A DNA stretch of 64,000 bases from Flavivirga eckloniae (GTDB taxonomy: Bacteria; Bacteroidota; Bacteroidia; Flavobacteriales; Flavobacteriaceae), in the NCBI RefSeq assembly GCF_002886045.1, contig NZ_CP025791.1, positions 4,231,001-4,295,000 on the forward strand, read 5' to 3'. Position 1 is the stretch's first letter; each line of letters starts with the position of its first letter. The notes under the pieces are model-generated. The model was not told the origin of the DNA. It did not search any database and was given only the letters and a program-made list of their open reading frames with translations. This document shows positions 21,718 through 59,687 of the stretch, piece after piece. Made by a program: the position numbers and the translations under genes.

Positions 21718-24700
21718 ATGAAACCAGAACTACGAAACCAAATTCCCAAATCTAACTACCTACTTGTTTCATTTTTTTTATTTCTATTCTTTCAATCTTT
21801 TGCAAATAATAATTGTGGAACTATTGAAGGTTTTGAATTTACGAACGGTCACGAATCTGTAGTTTTATCAGATGGTAAAACGTATAGTATCGAAGAATTG
21901 CCAAATAATTTTTATCTTAATTCTCATGTTAGCGGATATTCCCAAAGTATACGCTATGTTATTGAAAATTTAAATACTGGTAAAAAACACAAAGTCACCG
22001 AAAATTTATTGCCATATACTTTTCCTGCTGGAAATAATTCATGGCATTTGGGGAATGGTACATTTAAGTTAACTGCTACTTTATATAAGTATGACTACGG
22101 GTATGGAAAATGTGACTCCAAATCTGTAACATTTACTTTAGGAGAAGTTTGCAGTGCAGATGCAGGTACTTTGCAGGTGGATGCCCCCACGGTGGTATTG
22201 AGCGGAGGAGAGGCGATGCTTAGCGCAACGCCATCTGGCGACATCAACGTACCGGAGGGTTACAGCAGCATCTATGTGCTGACCTCGGGATCTGGCCTGG
22301 TGATCGAACAGGTGAACACGGAATACCCGAAATTCACTGTGGACTCGGCCGGACTATACACGATCCATACGCTTGTGTACGATGGTAACGAAGTGAGCCC
22401 AAACTTCCTGGACCTTGGTGTCGTGGTTCCTGGCACTACCACTGGTGTGGACGTACTGAACATAGTGACGGGTAACGGACTGTGCGCCAGCCTCGACGTA
22501 ACGGGCGCACCGATCAATGTAGAGGACTGCAGTGCTAACGCAGGCACCCTTCAAGCGGACGAGCCCATTGTGGTATTGAGCAATGGCTCAGCCATGCTGA
22601 GCGCAACGCCATCTGGAGATATTCATATTCCTGAGGGATACAGCAGCATCTACGTGCTGACCTCGGGATCTGGCCTGGTGATCGAACAGGTGAACACGGA
22701 ATACCCGAAGTTCACGGTAGACGAAGCTAGACTGTACACGATCCATACGCTTGTGTACGATGGGAACGAAGGGAGCCCAAACTTCCTGGACCTTGGTGTC
22801 GTGGTTCCTGGCACTACCACCGGTGTGGACGTACTGAACGTAGTAACGGGTAACGGACTGTGTGCCAGTCTTGACGTAACGGGCGCACCGATCACGGTGG
22901 AGGGCTGCAGTGCTGACGCAGGCACCCTGGAGGCGGACGAGCCCACTGTGGTATTGAGCGGAGGAGAGGCGATGCTTAGCGCAACGCCATCTGGCGACAT
23001 CAACGTACCGGAGGGTTACAGCAGCATCTACGTGCTGACCTCGGGATCTGGCCTGGTGATCGAACAGGTGAACACGGAATACCCGAAATTCACTGTGGAC
23101 GCGGCCGGACTGTACACGATCCATACGCTTGTTTACGATGGCAACGAAGGGAGCCCAAACTTCCTGGACCTTGGTGTCGTAGTTCCTGGTACTACCACTG
23201 GTGTGGACGTATTGAACATAGTAACAGGGAACGGACTGTGTGCCAGTCTCGACGTAACGGGAGCACCGATCACGGTGGAGGACTGCAGTGCTGACGCAGG
23301 CACCCTTCAAGCGGACGAGCCCACTGTGGTATTGAGTGGAGGAGAGGCGATGCTGAGCGCAACACCATCTGGTAATATCAACGTACCGGAGGGGTACAGC
23401 AGCATCTACGTGCTGACCTCGGGATCTGGCCTGGTGATCGAACAGGTGAACACGGAATACCCGAAATTCACTGTGGACGCGGCCGGATTGTACACGATCC
23501 ATACACTGGTATACGATGGTAACGAAGGGAGCCCAAACTTCCTGGATCTTGGTGTCGTGGTTCCTGGCACTACTACCGGGGTGGACGTACTGAACATAGT
23601 AACAGGGAACGGACTCTGTGCCAGTCTCGACGTAACGGGCGCACCGATCACGGTTGAGGACTGCAGTGCTGACGCAGGGACCCTTCAAGCGGATGCCCCC
23701 AATGTGGTATTGAGCGGAGGAGAGGCGATGCTGAGCGCAACACCATCTGGCGATATCAACGTACCGGAGGGGTATAGCAGCATCTACGTGCTGACCTCGG
23801 GGTCTGGCCTGGTGATCGAACAGGTGAACGCAGAATACCCGAAGTTCACTGTGGACGCGGCCGGACTGTACACGATCCATACGCTGGTATACGATGGCAA
23901 CGAAGGGAGTCCAAACTTCCTGGACCTTGGTGTCGTGGTTCCTGGCACTACTACCGGGGTGGACGTACTGAACATAGTAACGGGTAACGGGCTCTGTGCC
24001 AGTCTTGACGTAACGGGCGCACCGATCATGGTGGAGGGCTGCAGTGCTAACGCAGGCACCCTTCAAGCGGATGAGCCCACTGTGGTATTGAGCGGAGGAG
24101 AGGCGATGCTGAGCGCAACGCCATCTGGAGATATTCATATTCCTGAGGGATACAGCAGCATCTACGTGCTGACCTCGGGGTCTGGCCTGGTGATCGAACA
24201 GGTGAACACGGAATACCCGAAATTCACTGTGGACGCGGTCGGACTGTACACGATCCATACGCTGGTATACGATGGCAACGAAGGGAGTCCAAACTTCCTG
24301 GATCTTGGTGTCGTAGTTCCTGGTACTACCACTGGTGTGGACGTATTGAACATAGTGACGGGTAACGGACTCTGTGCCAGTCTCGACGTAACGGGAGCAC
24401 CGATCAATGTAGAGGATTGCAGTGCAGACGCAGGCACCCTGCAAGCGGACGAGCCCACTGTGGTATTAAGCAAAGGCTCAGCCATGCTGAGCGCAACGCC
24501 ATTTGGTGACATCAACGTACCGGATGGATACAGCAGCATCTACGTGCTGACCTCGGGATCTGGGCTGGTGATCGAACAGGTGAATGCGGAATACCCGAAA
24601 TTCACTGTGGACGCGGCCGGATTGTACACGATCCATACACTGGTATACGATGGCAACGAAGGGAGTCCAAACTTCCTGGACCTTGGTGTCGTGGTTCCTG

Positions 24701-26334
24701 GTACTACCACCGGGGTGGACGTACTGAACATAGTGACGGGTAACGGACTCTGTGCCAGTCTCGACGTAACGGGCGCACCGATCACGGTTGAGGACTGCAG
24801 TGCAGACGCAGGCACCCTGCAAGCGGACGAGCCCACTGTGGTATTAAGCAAAGGCTCAGCCATGCTGAGCGCAACGCCATTTGGTGACATCAACGTACCG
24901 GATGGATACAGCAGCATCTACGTGCTGACCTCGGGATCTGGGCTGGTGATCGAACAGGTGAATGCGGAATACCCGAAATTCACTGTGGACGCGGCCGGAT
25001 TGTACACGATCCATACACTGGTATACGATGGCAACGAAGGGAGTCCAAACTTCCTGGACCTTGGTGTCGTGGTTCCTGGTACTACCACCGGGGTGGACGT
25101 ACTGAACATAGTGACGGGTAACGGACTCTGTGCCAGTCTCGACGTAACGGGCGCACCGATCACGGTTGAGGACTGCAGTGCTGACGCAGGCACCCTTCAA
25201 GCGGACGAGCCCACTGTGGTATTGAGCAAAGGTTTAGCCATGCTGAGCGCAACGCCATCTGGTGACATCAACGTACCGGATGGGTATAGCAGCATCTACG
25301 TGCTGACCTCGGGGTCTGGCCTGGTGATCGAACAGGTGAACGCAGAATACCCGAAGTTCACTGTGGACGCGGCCGGACTGTACACGATCCATACGCTTGT
25401 TTACGATGGCAACGAAGGGAGTCCAAACTTCCTGGACCTTAGTGTCGTAGTACCGGGCACAACCACAGGTGTGGACGTATTGAACATAGTAACGAGTAAC
25501 GGACTGTGTGCCAGTCTTGACGTTGCAGGAGCACCAATTACCGTAGAAGAAGTCGATATATGTAATGCTTTTTCTGGAACTATGTATTCTGGGAATTCTA
25601 TAAATTGTCTAAGTAATGGGGTAACAACGATTTCAGCTAAGGTTGGAAAATCACCAGTTATTCCTGTTGGTTATAACCAATTGTATGTTTTAACGGAGGC
25701 TTTTTCACTAACAATTTTAAATGTATCAGAAACGCCTAGTTTTGAAGTTAACCATAGAGGTTTTTATAGAATCCATAGCCTTGTTTATAATCCCGATACT
25801 TTAGATTTAAGTATCGTAGTTCCTGGGCAAACAACAGGATTTGATGTGGTTAATCTTATTTCGGAAAATCAAATATGTGCTTCTTTAGATGTTAAAGGGG
25901 CTATAAATTTGGTCATAGGATCTCGTTGGTTTTGTTATTTCTTTAATAAGTATTTCAATAGAGGAAATAATAGTAGCAAGAATAGTGATTCCGGTAAAGA
26001 GTTTAATGATTATGCTAGTTTAGAGGATTTTGTAAATAGCTATAATAATTATGAGGCATTTAAGAGTGACTTTATTACTGCGAACGGTAAAACGCAATTC
26101 TTTCCAAACCCTGTAGTTAATACTTTAAATGTTGAAGTGCAATTAATTGATGACGAGGTGATGAATTACAGCATTGTAGATGTGAGTGGTAGAAGAGTAA
26201 TTTCTGGTATTGCTGAAGATTTGGAAAATGGTTTGCAAACAATTAATACAAGTAATCTTAATGCGGGAATGTACTTAGTGCAATTTGTGTCAGATTATAG
26301 AACGATAACAAAGAAGATAGTAGTTAGAGAATAA
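21718..26334 (+). CDS. Large T9SS-exported protein with nine near-identical 126-residue repeats
   Basis: 1538 residues. Signal peptide about 1-30 (ending FFQSFANN); a 115-residue unique N-terminal domain; nine repeats of 126 residues that each begin C-S-A-(D/N)-A-G-T-L and contain YSSIYVLTSGSGLVIEQVN, YTIHTLVYDGNE and VVVPGTTTGVDVLN; a tenth degenerate copy (ICNAFSGTM...); a low-complexity Asn/Ser linker; and a C-terminal sorting domain (about 1460-1538: FFPNPVVNTLNVEVQ, SIVDVSGRRVISG, AGMYLVQFVSD). The module recurs in secreted flavobacterial proteins without an assigned function. It is probably a stalk- or adhesin-like surface protein. The repeat DNA is far more GC-rich than the ends of the gene. 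The repeat number could vary or be misassembled. Confidence 0.85.
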   Translation: MKPELRNQIPKSNYLLVSFFLFLFFQSFANNNCGTIEGFEFTNGHESVVLSDGKTYSIEELPNNFYLNSHVSGYSQSIRYVIENLNTGKKHKVTENLLPYTFPAGNNSWHLGNGTFKLTATLYKYDYGYGKCDSKSVTFTLGEVCSADAGTLQVDAPTVVLSGGEAMLSATPSGDINVPEGYSSIYVLTSGSGLVIEQVNTEYPKFTVDSAGLYTIHTLVYDGNEVSPNFLDLGVVVPGTTTGVDVLNIVTGNGLCASLDVTGAPINVEDCSANAGTLQADEPIVVLSNGSAMLSATPSGDIHIPEGYSSIYVLTSGSGLVIEQVNTEYPKFTVDEARLYTIHTLVYDGNEGSPNFLDLGVVVPGTTTGVDVLNVVTGNGLCASLDVTGAPITVEGCSADAGTLEADEPTVVLSGGEAMLSATPSGDINVPEGYSSIYVLTSGSGLVIEQVNTEYPKFTVDAAGLYTIHTLVYDGNEGSPNFLDLGVVVPGTTTGVDVLNIVTGNGLCASLDVTGAPITVEDCSADAGTLQADEPTVVLSGGEAMLSATPSGNINVPEGYSSIYVLTSGSGLVIEQVNTEYPKFTVDAAGLYTIHTLVYDGNEGSPNFLDLGVVVPGTTTGVDVLNIVTGNGLCASLDVTGAPITVEDCSADAGTLQADAPNVVLSGGEAMLSATPSGDINVPEGYSSIYVLTSGSGLVIEQVNAEYPKFTVDAAGLYTIHTLVYDGNEGSPNFLDLGVVVPGTTTGVDVLNIVTGNGLCASLDVTGAPIMVEGCSANAGTLQADEPTVVLSGGEAMLSATPSGDIHIPEGYSSIYVLTSGSGLVIEQVNTEYPKFTVDAVGLYTIHTLVYDGNEGSPNFLDLGVVVPGTTTGVDVLNIVTGNGLCASLDVTGAPINVEDCSADAGTLQADEPTVVLSKGSAMLSATPFGDINVPDGYSSIYVLTSGSGLVIEQVNAEYPKFTVDAAGLYTIHTLVYDGNEGSPNFLDLGVVVPGTTTGVDVLNIVTGNGLCASLDVTGAPITVEDCSADAGTLQADEPTVVLSKGSAMLSATPFGDINVPDGYSSIYVLTSGSGLVIEQVNAEYPKFTVDAAGLYTIHTLVYDGNEGSPNFLDLGVVVPGTTTGVDVLNIVTGNGLCASLDVTGAPITVEDCSADAGTLQADEPTVVLSKGLAMLSATPSGDINVPDGYSSIYVLTSGSGLVIEQVNAEYPKFTVDAAGLYTIHTLVYDGNEGSPNFLDLSVVVPGTTTGVDVLNIVTSNGLCASLDVAGAPITVEEVDICNAFSGTMYSGNSINCLSNGVTTISAKVGKSPVIPVGYNQLYVLTEAFSLTILNVSETPSFEVNHRGFYRIHSLVYNPDTLDLSIVVPGQTTGFDVVNLISENQICASLDVKGAINLVIGSRWFCYFFNKYFNRGNNSSKNSDSGKEFNDYASLEDFVNSYNNYEAFKSDFITANGKTQFFPNPVVNTLNVEVQLIDDEVMNYSIVDVSGRRVISGIAEDLENGLQTINTSNLNAGMYLVQFVSDYRTITKKIVVRE
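22150..25551 (+). repeat. Nine tandem 378-bp repeats (126 codons each)
   Basis: Unit starts are at 22150, 22528, 22906, 23284, 23662, 24040, 24418, 24796 and 25174, exactly 378 bases apart. Units 7 and 8 (24418-24795, 24796-25173) look identical throughout. Two versions of one segment alternate: ATCAACGTACCGGAG and ATTCATATTCCTGAG (units 2 and 6). A sampled 60-base stretch in unit 3 is 53% GC, against 32% for a matching stretch in the degenerate tenth unit. Confidence 0.95.
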
Positions 26335-50544: not shown

Positions 50545-51309
50545 CTAGTTTAATATGGATTTTACAAATTTATCGATGCTGTTAATGCCTTCGTTGGTAA
50601 CATGTTTTACAAATGCACTTCCAATAATAGCTCCTTTAGCATATTGTGTTGCTTGGGTAAAGGTTTGATTGTTACTTATTCCAAATCCAACGATTTGAGG
50701 GTTTTTGAGATCCATGTTTCCTATACGTTCAAAATATTGGGTTTGTTCGTCTCCAAAACCTTCTTGAGCTCCTGTGGTACTAGCGCTACTAACCATATAA
50801 ATGAAACCGTTGGAAATGGAGTCTATATAGCCAATACGCTCATCACTGGTTTGTGGTGTTATTAAAAACACATTTATTAAACCGTAGGTTTCAAAAATGG
50901 TTTGGTATTTTTCGTGGTATACATCTACGGGCAAGTCTGGTATTATTAAACCATCTATACCAATCTCTTGACACCTTTTACAAAAAGCTTCTACACCATA
51001 TTGGTATATGGGGTTGAAGTATCCCATGATGATTAATGGGATATTAACAGATTGCCTAATATCTTTTAATTGATTAAAAAGAATTTCGGATGTCATCCCA
51101 TTTTTTAATGCTTGAGTGGAACTGGCTTGAATGGTAGGACCGTCTGCCAGAGGGTCGCTAAAAGGCAGACCTATTTCGATCATGTCTACACCATTTTTTT
51201 CTAAATCTTGTATGATTGAAACGGTATCGTTAATACTAGGGTAGCCTGCTGTGAAGTATATGGAGAGTAACTTCTTATCTTCTTGTAGTTTGTTATTTAT
51301 TCTATTCAT
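50545..51309 (-). CDS. trpA: Tryptophan synthase alpha chain
   Basis: Splits indole-3-glycerol phosphate into indole and glyceraldehyde 3-phosphate. 254 residues from the ATG at 51309 (MNRINNKLQEDKKLLSIYF), the standard N-terminus. The catalytic Glu E45 (DMIEIGLPFSDP) and Asp D56 (LADGP) are present; GFGISNN and the phosphate-binding end are intact. An in-frame extension up to 51501 is spurious: it reads through a repeat element whose 3' edge abuts this ATG. Last gene of the trp operon. Confidence 0.95.
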   Translation of the reverse strand: MNRINNKLQEDKKLLSIYFTAGYPSINDTVSIIQDLEKNGVDMIEIGLPFSDPLADGPTIQASSTQALKNGMTSEILFNQLKDIRQSVNIPLIIMGYFNPIYQYGVEAFCKRCQEIGIDGLIIPDLPVDVYHEKYQTIFETYGLINVFLITPQTSDERIGYIDSISNGFIYMVSSASTTGAQEGFGDEQTQYFERIGNMDLKNPQIVGFGISNNQTFTQATQYAKGAIIGSAFVKHVTNEGINSIDKFVKSILN

Positions 51310-51540
51310 TTTTTTGTCATTCCTGAGAAGGCAGGAATCTATTTTTTTAGTTAAATTTTTATTTTGTTCATTTTTTGCTTGTCCAAAAAACGAACCAAAA
51401 AAGGACATCCAAGCCAAGGAATTTTCAGTTTTAAAAACTGAAAACCGATTTAAAAACTCCGCGTCGAACTGTGTTCTCCTGTTCTCGGAGCTTTTCTTCA
51501 TCTATTCTGTGCCTTGGCAGGTCAATTCTGCGAATTGATT
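51310..51540 (-). repeat. Dispersed repeat block in the trpB-trpA gap
   Basis: The palindromic core (51316-51339; minus strand GATTCCTGCCTTCTCAGGAA then TGAC) ends six A before the trpA ATG. The rest is related to the longer elements at trpD and trpG in its opening part, then diverges. It contains a short CAGTTTTAAAAACTG palindrome. No gene. Confidence 0.65.
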
Positions 51541-51605
51541 AGGGGCTTAACTATCTATAATGTTCTATTTCTAATTTCAGACTTAAGTCCTTTTTTTAGT
51601 ATAAT

Positions 51606-52787
51606 TTATATTTTAAAGTATTCTATGTAATTCTCCAAATCTTTATCACCGCGACCAGATAAGCTCACTACAACAACATCATCGGGTTTAAATGTTTTTT
51701 GTTCGAATATAGCCAGTGCGTGAGAGCTTTCTATTGCCGGAATAATGCCTTCTAATTCACATAACTTTAATCCGGCTTTCATAGCATCGTCGTCTGTGAT
51801 TGCCATAAATTCAGCTCGTCCAGTTTTGCATAAATGAGAATGCATAGGACCAACACCGGGGTAGTCTAGACCAGCCGAAATGGAATAAGGTTCGGTTATT
51901 TGACCATCGTTTGTCTGCATCAATAAGGTTTTGCATCCGTGAATAATACCTTCTTTTCCTAATACTGATGTTGCTGCACTTTCTCCAGAATCAACTCCTA
52001 AACCAGCTGCTTCAACTGCAATAATATTTACTTGGTCTTCATGTAAAAAATGGTAGTAGGTTCCGGCTGCATTACTTCCTCCTCCAATACATGCAACAAC
52101 ATAATCGGGGTTTTCTCTGCCTTCATGTTCTTTTAACTGCCATTTGATTTCTTCTGAAATCACCGATTGAAATCTAGTTACCATATCGGGATAGGGATGA
52201 GGCCCAATAGCAGACCCTATAATGTAATGGGTGTTTACTGGATTGTTGATCCAATCTCGAATGGCTTCGTTAGTGGCATCTTTTAGGGTACGACTTCCTG
52301 AAAGTGCAGGTACTACTTTAGCTCCTAACATTTTCATTCTGGCAACGTTTGGCGCTTGTCTTTTAATGTCGATTTCGCCCATATAAACGATACACTCTAA
52401 GCCCATTAGGGCACAAACGGTAGCGGTTGCTACACCATGTTGTCCTGCGCCGGTTTCTGCAATAATCCTGCGCTTTCCTAATCGTTTGGCCATTAATATC
52501 TGACCAATGGTATTGTTTATTTTGTGCGCTCCGGTATGGTTTAAATCCTCTCGTTTTAAATAAATTTTGGTGTTGTATTTTTCAGAAAGGCGTTTTGCAA
52601 AATAGAGCGGGGACGGGCGTCCAACATAATCTTTTAAGAGTTGGTTAAACTCTTTTTGAAATTCTGGTTCTGCCATAACTTTTAGGTAGTTTTGGCGTAA
52701 CTCTTCTACATTAGGATAAAGCATTTCAGGAATGTATGCACCTCCAAATTCGCCGTAATATCCTTTTTCGTCTACGTTATAATTCAT
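51606..52787 (-). CDS. trpB: Tryptophan synthase beta chain
   Basis: Condenses indole with serine using PLP. 393 residues from ATG 52787 ([20 protein letters not shown]), chosen over an upstream ATG at 52817 that adds ten unrelated residues. The PLP lysine is K89 in HTGAHKINN; the phosphate loop GGGSNAAG, and SGRGDKDL near the C-terminus, are conserved. Upstream lies another dispersed repeat. Confidence 0.96.
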
Positions 52788-52792
52788 TTTAT

Positions 52793-52900
52793 CTTCCTTT
52801 TTGTTATTTTGAATCACGCTTTTGGGCGTGATGTGACAATCTGCTTCTTTTGTAGGCGTTACTTCGGTCGTTTACCTTCGACTGCGCTCAGACTGACACG
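52793..52900 (-). repeat. Repeat-derived spacer between trpF and trpB
   Basis: It contains a TGTTATTTTGAATCACGC edge like the GTCATTC...GAATC family, a small CACGC..GCGTG palindrome, and the TTCGACTGCGCTCAGACTGA stretch, a type of sequence often dispersed in flavobacterial genomes. No gene. Confidence 0.45.
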
Positions 52901-53632
52901 CTACTTAATAACATTATTTTTAAATTCTTTTAATTGTTCAATATTTTTTAATCCGGGTTCTATTTCGAATTTGCTGTTCACATCTAAGGCATAGCAATAC
53001 TTTGATGCTTCACTTCGTTTAAATTTTTTAATGTCTTCTATTTGGTCTAAACCTATACCTCCACTTAAAAAGAAAGGTTTTGTTGAGGGGTAGTTGCTTA
53101 AAACATTCCAATCGAATGTATACCCATTACCCCCTGGTAATTTACCTTTTGTATCGAATAAATAATAATCGCAAACGGTTTCATAAGGCTTTAAGACCTC
53201 AAAATTAAACTCGTCTTTGATTGAGAATACTTTGATGATCTCAACCTGAACTTGTTTCAGGTTCTTATTTTGAGATGCTGAAACAAGTTCGTCATGACGA
53301 CGACGCAAAGCACCACAATACTCGGGTGATTCTTTGCCATGTAATTGAACGGCTTGTAAGTGATGCGTTTTTATTTGTTCAATAACATATTCCAAACTTT
53401 CATCTACAAAAACACCTGTTTTTTTAATGGATCCTGGCAATTCCGGAATATTGGTATTAAAATGTCTTGCAGATTTTTCATAAAATATAAACCCAAGATA
53501 ATCCGGTTGCAAATCAGCAACCTGAGCTATGTTGTCTTTATATTTCATACCACAAACTTTTAGCTTTAACCCAGCTTTCTCTAGAGAGGTTGTTTTGTTA
53601 GTTTGTGATATGTTTTTTTCTTCTTTTTTCAT
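52901..53632 (-). CDS. trpF: Phosphoribosylanthranilate isomerase with an in-frame insertion
   Basis: Isomerises N-(5-phosphoribosyl)anthranilate (TIM barrel). 243 residues, longer than the usual 200-220. The first strand KVCGMKYKDNI starts only at residue 25, so there is a 22-residue extension (MKKEEKNISQTNKTTSLEKA), and ATG 53632 is the only usable start. Between ESPEYCGAL and EIIKVFS lie about 21 extra residues (110-130) encoded by a palindromic repeat. FFLSGGIG and LDVNSKFEIEPG at the phosphate-binding end are intact, so the enzyme is probably active. Confidence 0.92.
   Translation of the reverse strand: MKKEEKNISQTNKTTSLEKAGLKLKVCGMKYKDNIAQVADLQPDYLGFIFYEKSARHFNTNIPELPGSIKKTGVFVDESLEYVIEQIKTHHLQAVQLHGKESPEYCGALRRRHDELVSASQNKNLKQVQVEIIKVFSIKDEFNFEVLKPYETVCDYYLFDTKGKLPGGNGYTFDWNVLSNYPSTKPFFLSGGIGLDQIEDIKKFKRSEASKYCYALDVNSKFEIEPGLKNIEQLKEFKNNVIK
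53243..53305 (-). repeat. Palindromic repeat inserted in frame inside trpF
   Basis: Two perfect 13-bp arms, GAACTTGTTTCAG at 53248-53260 and CTGAAACAAGTTC at 53278-53290, with a 17-base loop, inside coding sequence. The GAACTTGTTTCAGCATCTC-type core resembles a repeat I recall as dispersed between genes in Flavobacteriaceae. Confidence 0.75.
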
Positions 53633-53662
53633 TCGAGTAAGTGTTCTCCTCCTTTGGATGAG

Positions 53663-54445
53663 TTAGAGGAGACTCTCTATAAATTGTTTAGCGCTTTCGC
53701 CTGCGTTATCGGTTTTCATAAAGTTTTCGCCTATTAAAAAGCCTTGATATCCATAAGGTTTTAATTCTTTAATGGCTTCAATATTACTAATGCCGCTTTC
53801 TGAAACTTTTACAAAATCATTAGGAATAAGTTGGCTTAATGTTTTACTGGTTTCTAAGCTAACATCGAAGGTTTTTAAATTCCTGTTATTTACGCCTAAC
53901 ATATCTAATGAAGGCATAACGGATTTATGTAATTCTTCTTCGTTGTGAACTTCTAACAGAACATCTAAATTTAAACGTTTTGCAAATTCTGAAAACTGTT
54001 TTATTTCTTCACGGGTTAAAATAGCTGCTATCAATAATATGACATCGGCACCGTAGGCTTTGGCTTCAAGTAGCTGATATTCGTCTATAATAAACTCTTT
54101 ACGGAGTAATGGTAAATTACAGCTTGCTCTGGCAAGCAACAGATCGTCTAACGACCCTCCAAAGTATTTTCCGTCTGTTAAAACGGACATGCCACAAACA
54201 CCAGCATCTTCATAACCTTTTGCAACATCTTGAACGTTAAATCCTTGATTGATTACCGATTTTGATGGGGAACGCCTTTTGTGCTCTGCAATAATTCCTG
54301 TATTGCTATGGCGTAACTTATCGGCAAGCGAAATAGTCGCTCTTTCAAATAAAACGGATTGTTCTAGTTGCGATACTGGAATTAAGCCTTTGCGTAGTGC
54401 GACTTCTTCTCGTTTATCTTTTACTATTTTATCTAGTATGGTCAT
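53663..54445 (-). CDS. trpC: Indole-3-glycerol-phosphate synthase
   Basis: Ring closure step to indole-3-glycerol phosphate. 260 residues. Catalytic blocks: IAEHKRRSPSKSVIN, VLTDGKYFGGSLDDL, LLRKEFIIDEYQLLEAKAYGAD (seen as 'LLRKEFIIDEYQLLEA'), LLEVHNEEEL, GVNNRNLKTF and VSESGI. Stand-alone, not fused to trpF. Separated from trpD by the heptamer minisatellite. Confidence 0.96.
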   Translation of the reverse strand: MTILDKIVKDKREEVALRKGLIPVSQLEQSVLFERATISLADKLRHSNTGIIAEHKRRSPSKSVINQGFNVQDVAKGYEDAGVCGMSVLTDGKYFGGSLDDLLLARASCNLPLLRKEFIIDEYQLLEAKAYGADVILLIAAILTREEIKQFSEFAKRLNLDVLLEVHNEEELHKSVMPSLDMLGVNNRNLKTFDVSLETSKTLSQLIPNDFVKVSESGISNIEAIKELKPYGYQGFLIGENFMKTDNAGESAKQFIESLL

Positions 54446-54451
54446 TTTTAG

Positions 54452-54583
54452 TGTTCGTATTCAGTGTTCAGTGTTCAGTTCTCAGTATTCAGTGTTCGGT
54501 ATTCAGTGTTCAGTGTTCAGTATTCAGTGTTCAGTATTCAGTGTTCAGTGTTCAGTGTTCGGTGTTCAGTGTTCGGTGTGCAA
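54452..54583. repeat. Heptamer minisatellite between trpD and trpC
   Basis: About 19 units of 7 bases, mostly AGTGTTC with AGTATTC and GGTGTTC variants and one 6-base unit. A degenerate ACTG-rich tail follows to about 54625. It lies in the trp transcript between the trpD stop and the trpC start. Because 7 is not a multiple of 3 it gives open but meaningless frames on the plus strand. Confidence 0.92.
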
Positions 54584-54626
54584 CTGCTTACTGCCACTGT
54601 ATACTGATCACTGCGACTGCGTACTA

Positions 54627-55619
54627 TCATCTACTCATTTCTATTAATTTATCTAAACTTGCTTTTGCTTTTCCAGAAAGTAAGGATTCTTTTGCTTGCT
54701 CAAATCCTTCTTTATGGCTAATCTGTTTTGTTGTTGCAATGGCTAATCCTGCATTGGCACAAACGACATGGTTCTGTGGTTCGGTACCTTTTCCTTCGAT
54801 AACATTTATAAAAATTTTAGCAGCATCTTCTACAGTGTTTCCTCCAAAAATAGATTCTTGGGTAATTGTTGATATTCCTAAATCTTCTGGTGAAAACATG
54901 GTTTCGGAATTGTTGGAAATGACTTTGGTATTTCCGGTTAATGAGATTTCGTCGTAACCGTCTAATGCGTGAACGATACTGTAATTTTTATCTGTATTTT
55001 GATATAAATAGCCGTATAATCGTAATAGCTCTAAGTTAAAAACGCCTACCATCTGGTTTTTAGGAAACGATGGGTTTACCATTGGGCCTAGCATGTTGAA
55101 AAATGTTTTTACGCCTAATTCGCGACGAATTGGTGCTACATTCTTCATAGCTGGGTGAAATAATGGTGCATGTAACACACAAATCCCTGCTTTATCTATG
55201 GATCGTTTTAAAAAGTCTTCATCATTAGAAAATTTAATGCCTAAATATTCCATAACGTTTGAAGATCCGCAAGCAGAAGATACTCCATAATTACCGTGTT
55301 TTGCTACTTTAATACCTGCCCCGGCTGATACAAATGATGACAGGGTAGAAATATTAAAAGTGTCTTTTCCATCACCGCCGGTTCCGCATAAATCAATGGC
55401 ATTGAAATCTTTTAAATCTATGGCAATACACAATTCCAATAAGGCATCTCTAAAGCCTCTTAATTCCTCTAGAGTGATGCTTCTCATCATAAAAACGGTT
55501 AGGAAAGAAGCTATCTGACTTTGGTTGTACATCCCATTGGAAATGTTTACCAATACTTGTTTAGCTTCTTCGCTTGAGATGTTTTCGTGATTTATAAGTC
55601 TGTTTAATAAGTTTTTCAT
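54627..55619 (-). CDS. trpD: Anthranilate phosphoribosyltransferase
   Basis: Transfers phosphoribose from PRPP to anthranilate. 330 residues. Motif CGTGGDG at 78-84, then KDTFNIST; KHGNYGVSSACGSSNVMEYLG (seen as 'GNYGVSSACGSSNVMEYLG') and the NMLGPMVNP segment are typical. A dispersed repeat begins directly upstream of its ATG. Confidence 0.97.
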   Translation of the reverse strand: MKNLLNRLINHENISSEEAKQVLVNISNGMYNQSQIASFLTVFMMRSITLEELRGFRDALLELCIAIDLKDFNAIDLCGTGGDGKDTFNISTLSSFVSAGAGIKVAKHGNYGVSSACGSSNVMEYLGIKFSNDEDFLKRSIDKAGICVLHAPLFHPAMKNVAPIRRELGVKTFFNMLGPMVNPSFPKNQMVGVFNLELLRLYGYLYQNTDKNYSIVHALDGYDEISLTGNTKVISNNSETMFSPEDLGISTITQESIFGGNTVEDAAKIFINVIEGKGTEPQNHVVCANAGLAIATTKQISHKEGFEQAKESLLSGKAKASLDKLIEMSR

Positions 55620-55869
55620 TTTTTGTCATTCCTGCATAGACAGGGATCTTTTTAATTTTACTTTCTATTTTGCTTTAGTTCATATTACCTTGATATAATA
55701 CCCTTACTACGCTCAGGATAAACCAAGTCAAAAAATCATATCAAAATTAGAAAATTGCTAAAGCACCATTTACTTTCGGAATTATGTGCTTGAGGCTCCG
55801 CTTCGCATCTCTATGCCTTTGTTCATTATTTTTGAATTTTGATGATTCCGACTGTGTCGGAAATTCAAG
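55620..55869 (-). repeat. Extended dispersed repeat upstream of trpD (copy A)
   Basis: About 250 bases that align along their length with the element upstream of trpG (56515-56772). Its palindromic core (55625-55648; minus strand GATCCCTGTCTATGCAGGAA then TGAC) ends five A before the trpD ATG. It contains CCGACTGTGTCGG near the far end. Bases 55870-55947 are an ACTG-rich spacer to trpG. Confidence 0.75.
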
Positions 55870-55947
55870 TTCGATTTAAATGTCATTATCTAATTTTTAG
55901 TTATAGTTTTTTCAGCTGAGTAAGCACTGCTTACTGCCCACTGTTAA

Positions 55948-56514
55948 CTAATGTGCTAACCAGTTCTCTAATATTTTTTTTCCGTTTGGTGTTAAAACCG
56001 ATTCTGGATGGTACTGTACACCTTTTACATCGTAAACTTTATGACGTAGCGACATCACTTGTCCGTTTTCATCAAACGACGTGGCTTCCAGGCTATCTGG
56101 TAAATCTGGATTAACAACCCAAGAGTGGTAGCGACCTACTTCTATGTTTTTATCTAAACCTTTAAAGATAGGTTCGTCATCAACACTAATGGTTACATTT
56201 GTTGAAACGCCGTGATATACTTCGTCTAAATTAATTAACGATCCGCCAAAAACTTCGCCTATTGCTTGTTGCCCCAGGCAGACGCCTAAAATACTTTTAG
56301 TAGGCGCATACTTTTCAATAATTGGTTTTAATAAACCAGCTTCGTCTGGAATACCTGGCCCTGGTGATAATACAATTTTATCGAACGGTTCTACATCTTC
56401 TAAAACCAATTTATCATTCCTTACTACTGTAACATCACAATTTAAATCTTCAAGATAGTGGACTAAATTGTATGTAAAACTATCGTAATTATCTATAACT
56501 AGTACTTTCGTCAT
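55948..56514 (-). CDS. trpG: Anthranilate synthase glutamine amidotransferase component
   Basis: Supplies ammonia from glutamine to TrpE. 188 residues, class I amidotransferase: IDNYDSFTYNLVHYL at the start, oxyanion region LSPGPGIPDEAG, nucleophile C79 in GVCLGQQAIGEVFGG, and the His-Glu pair in GVQYHPESVLTP. Could also serve folate synthesis, but its operon place makes the trp role primary. Confidence 0.96.
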   Translation of the reverse strand: MTKVLVIDNYDSFTYNLVHYLEDLNCDVTVVRNDKLVLEDVEPFDKIVLSPGPGIPDEAGLLKPIIEKYAPTKSILGVCLGQQAIGEVFGGSLINLDEVYHGVSTNVTISVDDEPIFKGLDKNIEVGRYHSWVVNPDLPDSLEATSFDENGQVMSLRHKVYDVKGVQYHPESVLTPNGKKILENWLAH

Positions 56515-56772
56515 TTTTTTATCATTCCGGTGAAAACAGGAATCTATATTTAATTAAAATTCATTATTCTTTTTTATTTGCTCATTTTGTTTTGATACAA
56601 AACCCTTCGACTACGATCAGGATAAACCAAGCCAAAAATCATGTCAAAATTAGGAAATTGCTAAGGCACCATTCATTTTCGGAATTACGTGCTTAAAGCT
56701 TCGCTTTGCATCTCCATTCCTTCATTCATTATTTCTGAATTTTGACTTTTCCGACTGCGTCGGAATTTCAAG
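56515..56772 (-). repeat. Extended dispersed repeat upstream of trpG (copy B)
   Basis: Same layout as copy A: palindromic core at 56521-56544 (minus strand GATTCCTGTTTTCACCGGAA then TGAT) next to the trpG ATG, a shared middle (AGGATAAACCAAG, AAATTGCTAA, TTTCGGAATTA) and a CCGACTGCGTCGG palindrome at the far end. Confidence 0.78.
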
Positions 56773-56824
56773 ATTGATTTATATTTTAAGTTTCTTTTGA
56801 TACTTCTGTTGTTTAATTTTATTC

Positions 56825-58228
56825 CTAAATCTCCTCCGCCAGTTTTATGGCTTTCGTTAATGCTCCTAACTTATTATATACTTCTTGCAATTCGTTTTCT
56901 GAATTGGATTTTGAAACCAATCCTGCGCCAGCCTGCCAATGTAATTTGTGATTCTTACTTAAAAAGGTTCTAATCATAATGGCATGGTTAAAGTTGCCTT
57001 CAAAATCCATAAAGCCAATAGCACCTCCGTAAAATGAGCGGCTCGTTTTCTCGTATTGTTCTATAAGTTGCATGGCTCTGTGTTTAGGCGCGCCGCTTAA
57101 CGTACCGGCAGGGAATGTGTCGGCAACCACTTGCATGGTAGATGTGCTATCATGTTTTTGCCCTGTAACTTTACTTACTAAATGGATAACATGGGAAAAA
57201 AATTGAACTTCTCGATAGGTGTCTACTGTAACCCGACTTCCGTGTCTGCTTAAATCGTTTCTAGCTAAATCAACCAGCATGACATGCTCGGCATTTTCCT
57301 TATCGTCTTTAACGAGTTGTTTTGCTAATTCGGCATCTTTTGAATCGTTTCCGGTGCGTTTAAATGTTCCAGCAATAGGGTGGATTTCGGCTTTACCATC
57401 GCTTACAATAAGTTGGGCTTCGGGCGAACTTCCGAAAATTTTAAAGTTACCATAGTCGAAATAAAATAGGTAAGGAGAGGGGTTTATGCTTCGCAAGGCA
57501 CGGTATACATTAAATTCATCTCCTTTAAATTCTTGCGAAAAGTTTTTAGATAGTACCAATTGAAACACATCACCACGCGCGCAATGCTTTTTTGCCAATT
57601 CTACATGGTTTTTATACTCATCGTCTGTTAGATTAGAAGTAATATCTCCTTTAGAGTAGAAATCGTAAGAGGCAAAGTTTTTAACTTTGATTAAATGATC
57701 GATTTCATCAATATTACTTTCAGTATCATGGCAATGCGCAAAAATATAGGCTTCGTTTTTATGATGGTTTATGGCTATGATATTTTGGTACACAGCATAA
57801 TGAACATCTGGGATATTGATGGAGTTATCCTTTTTTGAAATTTCAATATCTTCAAAATATCTTACGGCATCGTAAGCGATATAACCAAAAATACCATTAT
57901 TTATAAACTTAAATTCGGTATCTGAATTAACATTGAATCGTTTGGTGAATTGATGAATTTCTTCTGAAACATCTATAGTATCTGTTATTTCTTTTTCTAA
58001 AGCTGTTCCGTCTGGAAAGGTCTGGCTAATAGTTTCATTTTCAACCTTAATTGACGCTATAGGATTAAAGCATATATAGGAAAAACTATTGTCGTTGGCA
58101 TGGTAATCGCTACTTTCGAGTAGTATGCTATTCGGGTACTTATCCCTAATTTTTAAGTAGATACTTACCGGAGTAATGGTGTCTGCCAGAATTTTTTTGT
58201 AATGCGTGTATAAATTATATTTTGTCAT
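56825..58228 (-). CDS. trpE: Anthranilate synthase component I
   Basis: Converts chorismate to anthranilate, the first committed step. 467 residues. Chorismate-binding core: FQLVLSKNFSQEF, SPSPYLFYF-like (NPSPYLFYFDYGNF), IFGSSPEAQL, IHPIAGTFKRTG, LVDLARNDLSRHG, GTLSGAPKHRAMQLI and YGGAIGFMDFEG. The N-terminal LLESSD motif, part of the Trp feedback site, is present, so allosteric control is likely in addition to attenuation. First structural gene of trpEGDCFBA. Confidence 0.97.
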   Translation of the reverse strand: MTKYNLYTHYKKILADTITPVSIYLKIRDKYPNSILLESSDYHANDNSFSYICFNPIASIKVENETISQTFPDGTALEKEITDTIDVSEEIHQFTKRFNVNSDTEFKFINNGIFGYIAYDAVRYFEDIEISKKDNSINIPDVHYAVYQNIIAINHHKNEAYIFAHCHDTESNIDEIDHLIKVKNFASYDFYSKGDITSNLTDDEYKNHVELAKKHCARGDVFQLVLSKNFSQEFKGDEFNVYRALRSINPSPYLFYFDYGNFKIFGSSPEAQLIVSDGKAEIHPIAGTFKRTGNDSKDAELAKQLVKDDKENAEHVMLVDLARNDLSRHGSRVTVDTYREVQFFSHVIHLVSKVTGQKHDSTSTMQVVADTFPAGTLSGAPKHRAMQLIEQYEKTSRSFYGGAIGFMDFEGNFNHAIMIRTFLSKNHKLHWQAGAGLVSKSNSENELQEVYNKLGALTKAIKLAEEI

Positions 58229-58260
58229 TATGCTGAATTTATTTCAGTAAATTTTTAATT

Positions 58261-58294
58261 AAAAAAGGCTTGTCGTGAATGACAAGCCTTTTTT
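58261..58294 (-). terminator. trp attenuator terminator (3:4 hairpin)
   Basis: On the minus strand a 14-bp stem (AAAAAAGGCTTGTC / GACAAGCCTTTTTT) with a 6-base loop ends in a T run, 33 bases before the trpE ATG. Its loop and inner arm contain TTCACGA (58273-58279), which can instead pair with TCGTGAA at 58327-58333 in the leader. Confidence 0.9.
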
Positions 58295-58325
58295 GATATT
58301 TTGAGTTTTAAATATACTAGGTTTT

Positions 58326-58349
58326 CTTCACGAACGTAAGTTTCTGAAG
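58326..58349 (-). promoter_or_regulatory. trp leader 1:2 hairpin and antiterminator segment
   Basis: The minus strand can fold as CTTCA-GAA...TTC-G-TGAAG, 8 bp with one bulge. Its 3' half contains TCGTGAA, the partner of TTCACGA in the terminator, so 1:2 and 2:3 pairings exclude each other. It starts just after the Trp codons of the leader peptide and overlaps its stop. Confidence 0.8.
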
Positions 58350-58384
58350 CTCCACCACCAAGTATTATTTAAAATTGTGTTCAT
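58328..58384 (-). CDS. trpL: trp operon leader peptide
   Basis: An 18-residue frame on the minus strand, MNTILNNTWWWSFRNLRS, with three consecutive TGG codons (58352-58360) and a TGA stop. It lies between a good promoter and a terminator hairpin ahead of trpE. Known mechanism: a ribosome stalled on Trp codons when charged tRNA-Trp is scarce lets the antiterminator form, whereas smooth translation lets the terminator form. Every part needed for that is visible here. Confidence 0.92.
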   Translation of the reverse strand: MNTILNNTWWWSFRNLRS

Positions 58385-58405
58385 TATTATTTTTTAATGT
58401 TGGTT

Positions 58406-58436
58406 CAAATATAGAAATGAAAATATAAATACACAA
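58406..58436 (-). promoter_or_regulatory. trp operon promoter
   Basis: On the minus strand: TTG (58436-58434), a 20-base spacer and TATATTTG (58413-58406), a close match to the Bacteroidota consensus. The start would lie near 58399, about 15 bases before the leader-peptide ATG. Confidence 0.8.
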
Positions 58437-58512
58437 TAGTTTAAAACATTTTTTATATAAAAGTTTGTTAAACTATAATATATACAGTGAAGTATTAATT
58501 AATTTTAGAACC

Positions 58513-59058
58513 ATGAAATTAAAACTATTAATTATTGCAATTTTAATAATAACAGGTTGCAAGCAAGAGAAGAAAGAAGTCGCGGTGACTACGAATACTG
58601 TTAGTAATGAGGTTGGTAATAATGTTGATTTGGACTCTGTTGAATTAGAGGTTTACGATTATGAAGGCTTTAAGAAATTCTTAAACAAGAAAGATGGTAA
58701 GGTATATGTTATTAATTTTTGGGCTACATGGTGTGCGCCATGTGTAAAAGAGTTACCTTATTTTGAAAAATTGAATACGCAATATCGCGATAAGAATGTT
58801 GAGGTTATTTTAGTGACTTTAGATTTTCCGCATTTATATGAAACTAAACTGAAACCATTTATTAAAGACAGAAAATTGGAATCTAAGGTTATTGCTTTAG
58901 ACGATGTGGATATGGATACATGGATTCCCCAAGTAAACAAAGATTGGTCTGGTGCTATACCGGCAACGATTATATATAAGAATGATACTAATAAGTTTTT
59001 TGAGGGATCATTTACTTATGAAGGATTAGAGAAAGAGGTTAAACAATTTTTAAATTAA
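58513..59058 (+). CDS. TlpA-like thioredoxin-fold lipoprotein
   Basis: 181 residues from ATG 58513; the longer frame to 58465 would bury the signal. Lipoprotein signal with C16 (LIITGC). Thioredoxin fold with WATWCAPC, the redox pair C74 and C77, and a cis-Pro region AIPATII. Periplasmic thiol reductase, possibly for cytochrome c or protein disulfide repair. It is followed 5 bases later by another thioredoxin-fold gene. Confidence 0.9.
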   Translation: MKLKLLIIAILIITGCKQEKKEVAVTTNTVSNEVGNNVDLDSVELEVYDYEGFKKFLNKKDGKVYVINFWATWCAPCVKELPYFEKLNTQYRDKNVEVILVTLDFPHLYETKLKPFIKDRKLESKVIALDDVDMDTWIPQVNKDWSGAIPATIIYKNDTNKFFEGSFTYEGLEKEVKQFLN

Positions 59059-59063
59059 ATATT

Positions 59064-59687
59064 ATGAAAAAAGCAGTCCAAATAATTTCAGTTGCATTTG
59101 TTGTACTTTTTATTAGCGCATTTGTAGTAAACGAAAGCAGTACTTTAGGAGAAGGGTACAAGATAGGTGATGTTGCAGAAGATTTTTCTCTTAAGAATAT
59201 AGACGGTAATATGGTGTCTTTGTCAGATTATAAAGATGCTAAAGGCTATATTGTAATATTTACATGTAATACGTGCCCATATGCAGTGATGTACGAGGAT
59301 AGAATTATTGCTCTAAACGAAAAGTATGCTTCGCAGGGGTATCCAGTAATTGCCATTATGCCAAATAACACCGATGTTAAACCGGGAGATAATATGGAAG
59401 CTATGAAAAACCGAGCGAAAAGCAAAGGTTTTACTTTTCCTTATTTAATAGATAAGAAACAAAGTGTATATCCTAAATATGGAGCTACTAAAACACCACA
59501 TGTATTTATTTTGAAGAAAACGGATGGGGGTAATGTTGTAAAATATATTGGGGCTATTGATGATAATTATAAAGATGCTTCGGCGGTAAAAACCAAATAT
59601 GTTGAGAATGCTGTTGATGCACTTTTAAAGGGAAAGGAAGTTAAACAAACGGAAACCAAAGCTATTGGTTGTAGTATTAAAGTTTAA
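59064..59687 (+). CDS. Exported thioredoxin/peroxiredoxin-like protein
   Basis: 207 residues. N-terminal membrane segment or signal (about 1-22). Redoxin domain with IGDVAEDFSLKNIDGNMVSL (start of the fold) and a C68-N-T-C71 pair in FTCNTCPYAVMYEDR, an unusual spacing that differs from CPxC; cis-Pro in TKTPHVFIL. A third cysteine is near the C-terminus (IGCSIKV). Co-transcribed with the TlpA-like gene, so the two may form a redox pair. Confidence 0.9.
   Translation: MKKAVQIISVAFVVLFISAFVVNESSTLGEGYKIGDVAEDFSLKNIDGNMVSLSDYKDAKGYIVIFTCNTCPYAVMYEDRIIALNEKYASQGYPVIAIMPNNTDVKPGDNMEAMKNRAKSKGFTFPYLIDKKQSVYPKYGATKTPHVFILKKTDGGNVVKYIGAIDDNYKDASAVKTKYVENAVDALLKGKEVKQTETKAIGCSIKV

Follow-up and report, generated by a model that had tools for sequence, protein, structure and literature searches.

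The DNA in front of trpE in Flavivirga eckloniae raises the question of how a flavobacterium adjusts the expression of its tryptophan operon to the supply of tryptophan. The analysed window is a stretch of 64,000 nucleotides, in which ORFs and family models give the operon order trpE-G-D-C-F-B-A on the minus strand. The first gene, trpE (56825..58228), matches the NCBIfam model TIGR00564 (trpE_most) with 429.9 bits, below the curated cut-off of 517.7, and the TrpE hits of all 46 genomes examined in the two lots described below (20 + 26) are likewise under this cut-off. The rest of the operon (50545..56514) consists of trpG (55948-56514), trpD (54627-55619), trpC (53663-54445), trpF (52901-53632), trpB (51606-52817) and trpA (50545-51501), all on the minus strand and assigned by ORF and family model, except for trpF, an ORF which matches only models below their cut-offs. 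Several further features were observed in the window. The gaps between trpE and trpG (310 nt, 56515-56824) and between trpG and trpD (328 nt, 55620-55947) are long for one transcript, and the gap between trpD and trpC holds 18.7 copies of the 7-bp tandem repeat AGTGTTC (54450-54579). An in-frame palindromic repeat in trpF (53274-53296, minus strand; HDELVSAS) resembles a mobile repeat that has landed in the gene. Far from the operon, at 22186-25523, a 378-bp unit is repeated 8.8 times with 91% matches.

The region upstream of trpE is best read as a ribosome-mediated transcription attenuator of the trp operon and a member of the Rfam family RF01692, with a probability of roughly 0.93. This reading is based on the parts of the sequence, their conservation and in silico folds, from which we infer the stalling of the ribosome, the timing and the response to Trp. 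On the minus strand, positions 58436 to 58261 contain a promoter, a leader ORF, alternative stems and a terminator in this order, followed by trpE. The promoter (58406..58436) consists of TTG (58436-58434), 20 nucleotides of spacer and TATATTTG (58413-58406), which fits the Bacteroidetes -7 box TAnnTTTG and places the expected transcription start at about 58401-58400. Both the consensus and the spacing of 4-5 nt between box and start are those described in PMC6847099. The putative leader peptide ORF (58328..58384) encodes 18 amino acids, MNTILNNTWWWSFRNLRS, and reads ATG AAC ACA ATT TTA AAT AAT ACT TGG TGG TGG AGC TTC AGA AAC TTA CGT TCG TGA, with the stop codon UGA at 58330-58328 and three tandem Trp codons at 58352..58360 as the candidate sensor. 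The intrinsic terminator AAAAAAGGCUUGUC(AUUCAC)GACAAGCCUUUUUU (58261..58294) combines a 14-bp stem, the loop AUUCAC (58280-58275) and a T run, and lies 32 nt before the ATG of trpE. The promoter, the leader peptide with three consecutive Trp codons (58384-58328) and the terminator with its T run had been named in an earlier sequence-only reading of this DNA and are all present on the minus strand, as is the antiterminator pairing TCGTGAA/TTCACGA, found as UCGUGAA at 58333-58327 and UUCACGA at 58279-58273.

The predicted folds correct this picture in one respect. A hairpin that starts directly after the Trp codons, as the earlier reading had it, does exist (58326..58349, arms 58349-58345 and 58330-58326), but it is merely an inner hairpin, and the main 1:2 stem (P1) begins upstream of it. 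In the MFE structure, this stem is formed by a 5' strand at 58357..58374 and a 3' strand at 58306..58322, and the GGU at the inner end of the 5' strand, which spans the first two Trp codons, is paired with ACC at 58322-58320. The stop codon lies in the 3' arm of the inner hairpin, together with a portion of the antiterminator strand. According to folding with a modelled ribosome and the comparative tests, the antiterminator consists of a 5' strand UCGUGAAGAAAACCU (58319..58333), which includes the leader stop codon, and a 3' strand AGGCUUGUCAUUCACGA (58273..58289), which is made up of the terminator 5' arm, the loop and the first two bases of the 3' arm. Folding gave a z of -7.1, and 0 of 200 shuffles were equally stable. 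The leader/terminator duplex of the window itself is modestly better than chance, with 7 of 200 shuffles as low, and the comparative tests carry this point.

For the ribosome model, the RNA was counted as free from 15 nt behind the first base of the A-site codon. With the ribosome placed on the Trp codons, the RNA folds into the UCGUGAAGAAAACCU/AGGCUUGUCAUUCACGA pairing with -10.3 kcal/mol once the loop has emerged, and the same in silico folding did not form the antiterminator in free RNA or in RNA with the ribosome at the stop codon. In all computed states, the terminator is the most stable structure of the full-length RNA, with -20.0 at full length versus -10.8 for the antiterminator (three bases after the loop). 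Therefore, the switch would have to be kinetic, and the antiterminator would act by being first.

The proposed mechanism starts with RNA polymerase making the leader and a ribosome translating the 18-codon peptide. If Trp-tRNA is scarce, the ribosome would wait on the three Trp codons, thereby opening the 1:2 stem and covering the 5' arm of the inner hairpin. This would free the antiterminator 5' strand, which begins 18 nt downstream of the last Trp codon, for pairing with the emerging 3' strand, so that the terminator 5' arm and loop would be tied up and the polymerase would continue into trpE. If Trp-tRNA is ample, a ribosome at the UGA within UCGUGAA would cover the strand, allowing the terminator to form and transcription to stop near 58261. 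If the leader is not translated, the 1:2 stem and the inner hairpin would hold the strand, and the terminator would form as well. The locus contains the parts that define such an attenuator: a putative leader ORF with tandem Trp codons, an intrinsic terminator before the first gene, and an antiterminator that is mutually exclusive with it as judged by in silico folding and partner permutation.

The affiliation with RF01692 (Bacteroid-trp) is based on a full-length match at 58281..58404 on the minus strand, which covers model positions 1-131 with 61.5 bits (E 1.7e-6), above the gathering score of 49, and on its position upstream of a trp operon in a member of the Bacteroidota. It is the single match at E <= 0.001 in the whole genome. 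The Rfam scan of positions 57000-59500 of the window returned 5 matches at E up to 10, and only RF01692 exceeded its gathering score. Other RNA families were considered and rejected because they stayed below gathering in this part of the window, namely Thr_leader (28.7 of 55) and Atu_C9 (25.6 of 40, on the opposite strand over the terminator). RF00513 Trp_leader had no match there at E up to 10. Within Flavivirga, all 12 genomes of the genus, including that of the studied strain, contain an RF01692 match. A family sample of Flavobacteriaceae gave matches at E <= 0.001 in 275 of 397 genomes, 241 of them over the cut-off, and a phylum sample gave matches in 42 of 395 genomes, 35 of which are Flavobacteriaceae. 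In a pattern scan of named genomes, records of Paludibacter, Prevotellaceae and Paraprevotella were also among the matches listed.

This kind of attenuator is already known, and it is this locus alone that is new. The novelty implied by the sequence-only reading is not borne out: the motif has been listed among the probable cis-regulatory RNAs of Bacteroidetes (Weinberg 2010, PMC2864571, Table 1), a trp-leader or attenuator-like role was proposed in a paper on F. psychrophilum elastase (2019, PMC6414381), and the F. psychrophilum transcriptome (2021, PMC9723704) reported strong indications of attenuation by leader peptides upstream of amino-acid operons and named a 5' element of hisG common to the family. 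Leader-peptide-like short ORFs in long 5' UTRs have also been reported in the B. thetaiotaomicron transcriptome (PMC7366714). The F. psychrophilum attenuators share the family, the proposed mechanism and the -7 box with the locus studied here, and their anatomy is absent from the section of PMC9723704 devoted to them. In the literature searched, supplements apart, a published description of this antiterminator or of its spacing was not found. What is added here is the probable working of the element, a mechanistic refinement of a known kind.

For the comparative analysis, 172 loci were used, comprising 145 RF01692 loci and 27 loci anchored on trpE, with WW and a terminator required by the parsing rule. 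The underlying 146 RF01692 loci are a non-random selection that, besides the genus, consists mostly of the best-scoring matches of the family and phylum samples. Left out were L064 (no WW leader with terminator parsed), L299 (the same genome as L142), L314 (no terminator parsed) and L265, the terminator of which was misparsed and reads UUGUGAAG/CUUCACGA by eye. The leader start was parsed as GTG or TTG in 4 of the 172 loci. A short ORF with tandem Trp codons and a terminator was found in 145 of the 146 RF01692 loci, WW being required by the rule, and the longest Trp run among these 145 is three in 142 and two in 3 loci. The conserved WW/WWW leader frames that the sequence-only reading had called for are thus found. 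Of the 172 loci, 164 have a TAnnTTTG box in the 80 nt preceding the leader start, 134 of these with TTG 17-23 nt before the box, compared to 8.8% of random 80-nt stretches from the same loci.

In 141 of 145 loci, the segment behind the Trp codons can form a helix of 6 bp or more with the terminator loop plus the start of the 3' arm, and in 158 of 172 loci the best helix begins at a distance of 15-20 nt from the last Trp codon; both counts use the best helix per locus and include chance helices. The commonest pairings are UCGUGAA/UUCACGA (60) and GUCGUGA/UCACGAC (46). A spacing of 15-20 nt fits the edge of a waiting ribosome, as it corresponds to about the reach of a ribosome given its size. 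The reading-frame place of UCGUGA is variable: in 85 of the 172 loci the UGA of this motif serves as the leader stop codon, in 25 the motif falls within the ORF in a different frame, in 28 it follows the stop codon, and 34 loci lack it. Retention of the motif regardless of frame points to selection acting on the RNA and not on the peptide. Terminator loops usually vary freely, whereas the loop of the trp terminator is held across the loci. The terminator stem itself covaries in 20 diverse loci, with 100% of the cells paired and 9 pairs in which both bases had changed (0 of 500 shuffles). For the 1:2 stem, 99 of 172 loci have a duplex that outperforms 95% or more of 60 shuffles, whereas only 33 of 172 pass the same threshold against 60 foreign partners, so the conservation of this stem is partly due to shared sequence.

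Further evidence for the antiterminator comes from loci with other letters, in many of which the two strands still fit each other. Among the 133 loci with UCGUGA/UCACGA, 116 by duplex energy and 120 by helix score beat 95% of shuffles, compared to only 18 and 15, respectively, of the 39 loci with other letters when these are taken singly. The replaced pairings include GUGAGA/UCUCAC (L100), GUCGAU/AUCGAC (L104), GCGAUGA/UCAUCGC (L266), GGAUUCAG/CUGAAUCC (L273), GUGAACAGC/GCUGUUCAC (L294), GAUUCAG/CUGAAUC (L301), CGCUGUGA/UCACAGCG (L305) and CUUGCCGGGU/ACCCGGCAAG (L313). Column covariation of the 7-bp antiterminator was examined in a MAFFT alignment of 20 loci, in which L100, L104, L266 and L273 were out of register. 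There, 79.1% of the cells were paired (33 of 500 shuffles as high), and both bases had changed in 3 pairs (39 of 500 shuffles), with several loci misregistered. Since MAFFT misregisters the loci with other letters, partner permutation was relied on instead, in which every leader segment is paired with every terminator of the set. The duplexes with the own partner sum to -610.5 kcal/mol versus -491.4 +/- 18.6 for permuted partners, with 0 of 20,000 permutations as low (40 loci, including the misparsed L265). After removal of row and column means from the 39 loci without L265, the z is -7.9 with 0 of 50,000 permutations as good, and the own partner is better than the mean foreign partner in 35 of 39 loci. 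A set of 32 loci, left after the removal of 7 near-duplicates, five of them from the weakest-pairing family with ..NWWWLSNS.SGLK.. leaders, gave a z of -7.5 (0 of 50,000, row and column means subtracted), and the rerun with 39 loci restores all of these. The 16 loci from L294 on gave a z of -5.7, again with 0 of 50,000 permutations. Pairing is weak in the ..NWWWLSNS.SGLK.. loci, which lie outside the family Flavobacteriaceae: L309, L311 and L312 rank 26-29 of 40, and the six loci of this group alone reach a z of -2.1 with 1017 of 50,000 permutations as good. The covarying alternative pairings expected by the sequence-only reading are supported in so far as the leader-terminator pairing (2:3) is kept by sequence or matched change (0 of 50,000) and the terminator stem (3:4) covaries, while the single-locus and column counts are weaker. 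On conservation, the sequence half of the refutation test set by that reading, ribosome-mediated trp attenuation is supported as the best explanation.

Three other explanations have to be weighed against this. The leader could be an arrest peptide of the TnaC kind, which senses free tryptophan in the ribosome instead of working through slow reading of the Trp codons, and a short Trp-containing peptide before a Trp-related operon does agree with this. However, the tandem Trp codons are what is kept, the part of the peptide behind them is not conserved, with varying ends and UCGUGA in different frames or unread, and TnaC regulation has a sign opposite to what a biosynthetic operon needs, which makes such a peptide very unlikely. 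The least probable explanations are the two that treat the ORF as incidental. In one of them, Trp would be sensed by another device, either on the leader RNA (T-box, TRAP or riboswitch) or at the promoter (TrpR), as is the case for trp genes in other phyla. Against this, no T-box was among the 5 Rfam matches at E up to 10 in window positions 57000-59500, and TrpR (PF01371) and TRAP (PF02081) had 0 matches each in the genome, although PF01371 was found in the E. coli and B. subtilis controls and PF02081 in B. subtilis; in addition, the WW ORF accompanies 145 of 146 RF01692 loci.

The other, equally improbable, is a constitutive partial terminator behind a chance ORF, leaving the operon unregulated. 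The stability of the terminator in all computed states would be expected from such an element, but the Trp codons, the ribosome-sized spacing and the alternative pairing would not be expected to be kept across the family and beyond. Attenuation by a translating ribosome accounts for these conserved parts and remains the preferred reading.

The match to RF01692 does not delimit this layout. From the 122 genomes of the family sample without an RF01692 match, 20 were examined, and 14 of them have a strong TrpE. The best hits of the 6 genomes without one (85-276 bits) are probably related enzymes such as PabB. Loss of the attenuator in the RF01692-negative genomes was considered and rejected, as 12 of the 14 with strong TrpE keep the same layout, with a leader (WW or WWW) and a terminator immediately upstream of trpE; of the remaining two, L275 is cut by its contig and L277 lacks a WW leader. 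A second lot of 26 genomes, 5 from Flavobacteriaceae and the others from the same order or class, an RF01692 match being present in 7 and absent in 19, yielded 22 strong TrpE loci. A WW leader precedes trpE in 18 of these, including 15 of 15 RF01692-negative ones. The loci L295, L296, L298 and L306 have no WW leader before trpE and carry an RF01692 match about 1.3 kb further upstream; in the one case looked at (L141), such an upstream match precedes trpB. In control stretches, the same rule found WW leaders in 1 of 28 hisG upstream stretches and in 38 of 700 random stretches of trpE loci. No Rfam family reached its gathering score in the 18 RF01692-negative loci that were scanned. In the examined genomes, a missing Rfam match is therefore mostly a missing gene or a limit of the model. 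The RF01692 model as matched stops in the terminator 5' arm (GGCUUGUC) and omits the loop and hence this antiterminator, and 12 family loci with the same layout before trpE fall below its gathering score. For annotation, this suggests an extension of RF01692 that takes in the terminator loop, and it suggests that the present model misses similarly arranged loci. In another family of the class, two genomes contain two separate Trp leaders each (L143, L144 and L303, L304), one before trpE and the other on another contig before a trpD-like gene.

The F. eckloniae genome carries further candidate leaders of this type. At hisG (L324:1183), a His leader peptide MNFIQLHHHHFHICSQAK is followed by a terminator, and an HHH leader with a terminator was found in 28 of 29 parsed family loci (30 fetched), the 29th being cut by a contig end. 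With a ribosome modelled on the His codons of the own hisG leader, UCUCAAGCG pairs with CGUUUGAGA at -17.6 kcal/mol. This leader is below the Rfam His_leader cut-off (31.6 of 49) and differs from the trp leader in its His codons and in its antiterminator, which uses the terminator 5' arm and two loop bases. Upstream of ilvD (L325:1028), an Ile/Val-rich leader peptide MKKQILNIVSIIVIVIISQR precedes a terminator, Rfam Phe_leader stays below its cut-off (38.3 of 55), and a SAM-II riboswitch match just below its cut-off (42.8 of 44) lies at L325:919-791 on the minus strand, opposite to ilvD. A Thr/Ile-rich short ORF MNHLNQNTVVRIASLTEGTTAIFGTTTIITTLWGC, which resembles the enteric thrL, was observed upstream of the aspartokinase-homoserine dehydrogenase gene (L328:984), where no clear intrinsic terminator was seen by eye.

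In its general logic, the trp leader is like the trpL attenuator of E. coli, which also has a short leader peptide with tandem Trp codons, alternative 1:2, 2:3 and 3:4 pairings and an intrinsic terminator before trpE. It is unlike trpL in that the antiterminator strand contains the leader stop codon and reaches via the terminator loop into the 3' arm, and in that TrpR was not found in this genome. Features of the E. coli element are described in PMC1183508. In 29 of the 172 trp leaders (e.g. L018, L266 and L307), 4-5 nt separate the end of TAnnTTTG from the leader start. Should transcription begin at this distance of 4-5 nt from the box, as it does in F. johnsoniae, the leader mRNA would be leaderless in these loci.

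A broader interpretation, for which the chances appear evenly balanced, is that the trp attenuators of the Bacteroidota represent an old, phylum-wide design of their own. In this design, a strand located one ribosome length behind the Trp codons would invade the terminator loop, its place relative to the stop codon would be free, and its letters would have been exchanged repeatedly along with the matching loop, at a constant spacing. About one sixth of the loci would be leaderless, with the first ribosome loading on a 5'-end AUG. Flavobacterial translation has been reported to start without Shine-Dalgarno pairing (PMC6847099). If a conserved switch depends on a ribosome that closely follows RNA polymerase over the first 60 nt of a transcript, transcription would be coupled to translation in flavobacteria as well, and the spacing of 15-20 nt offers a direct handle on this coupling at the bench.
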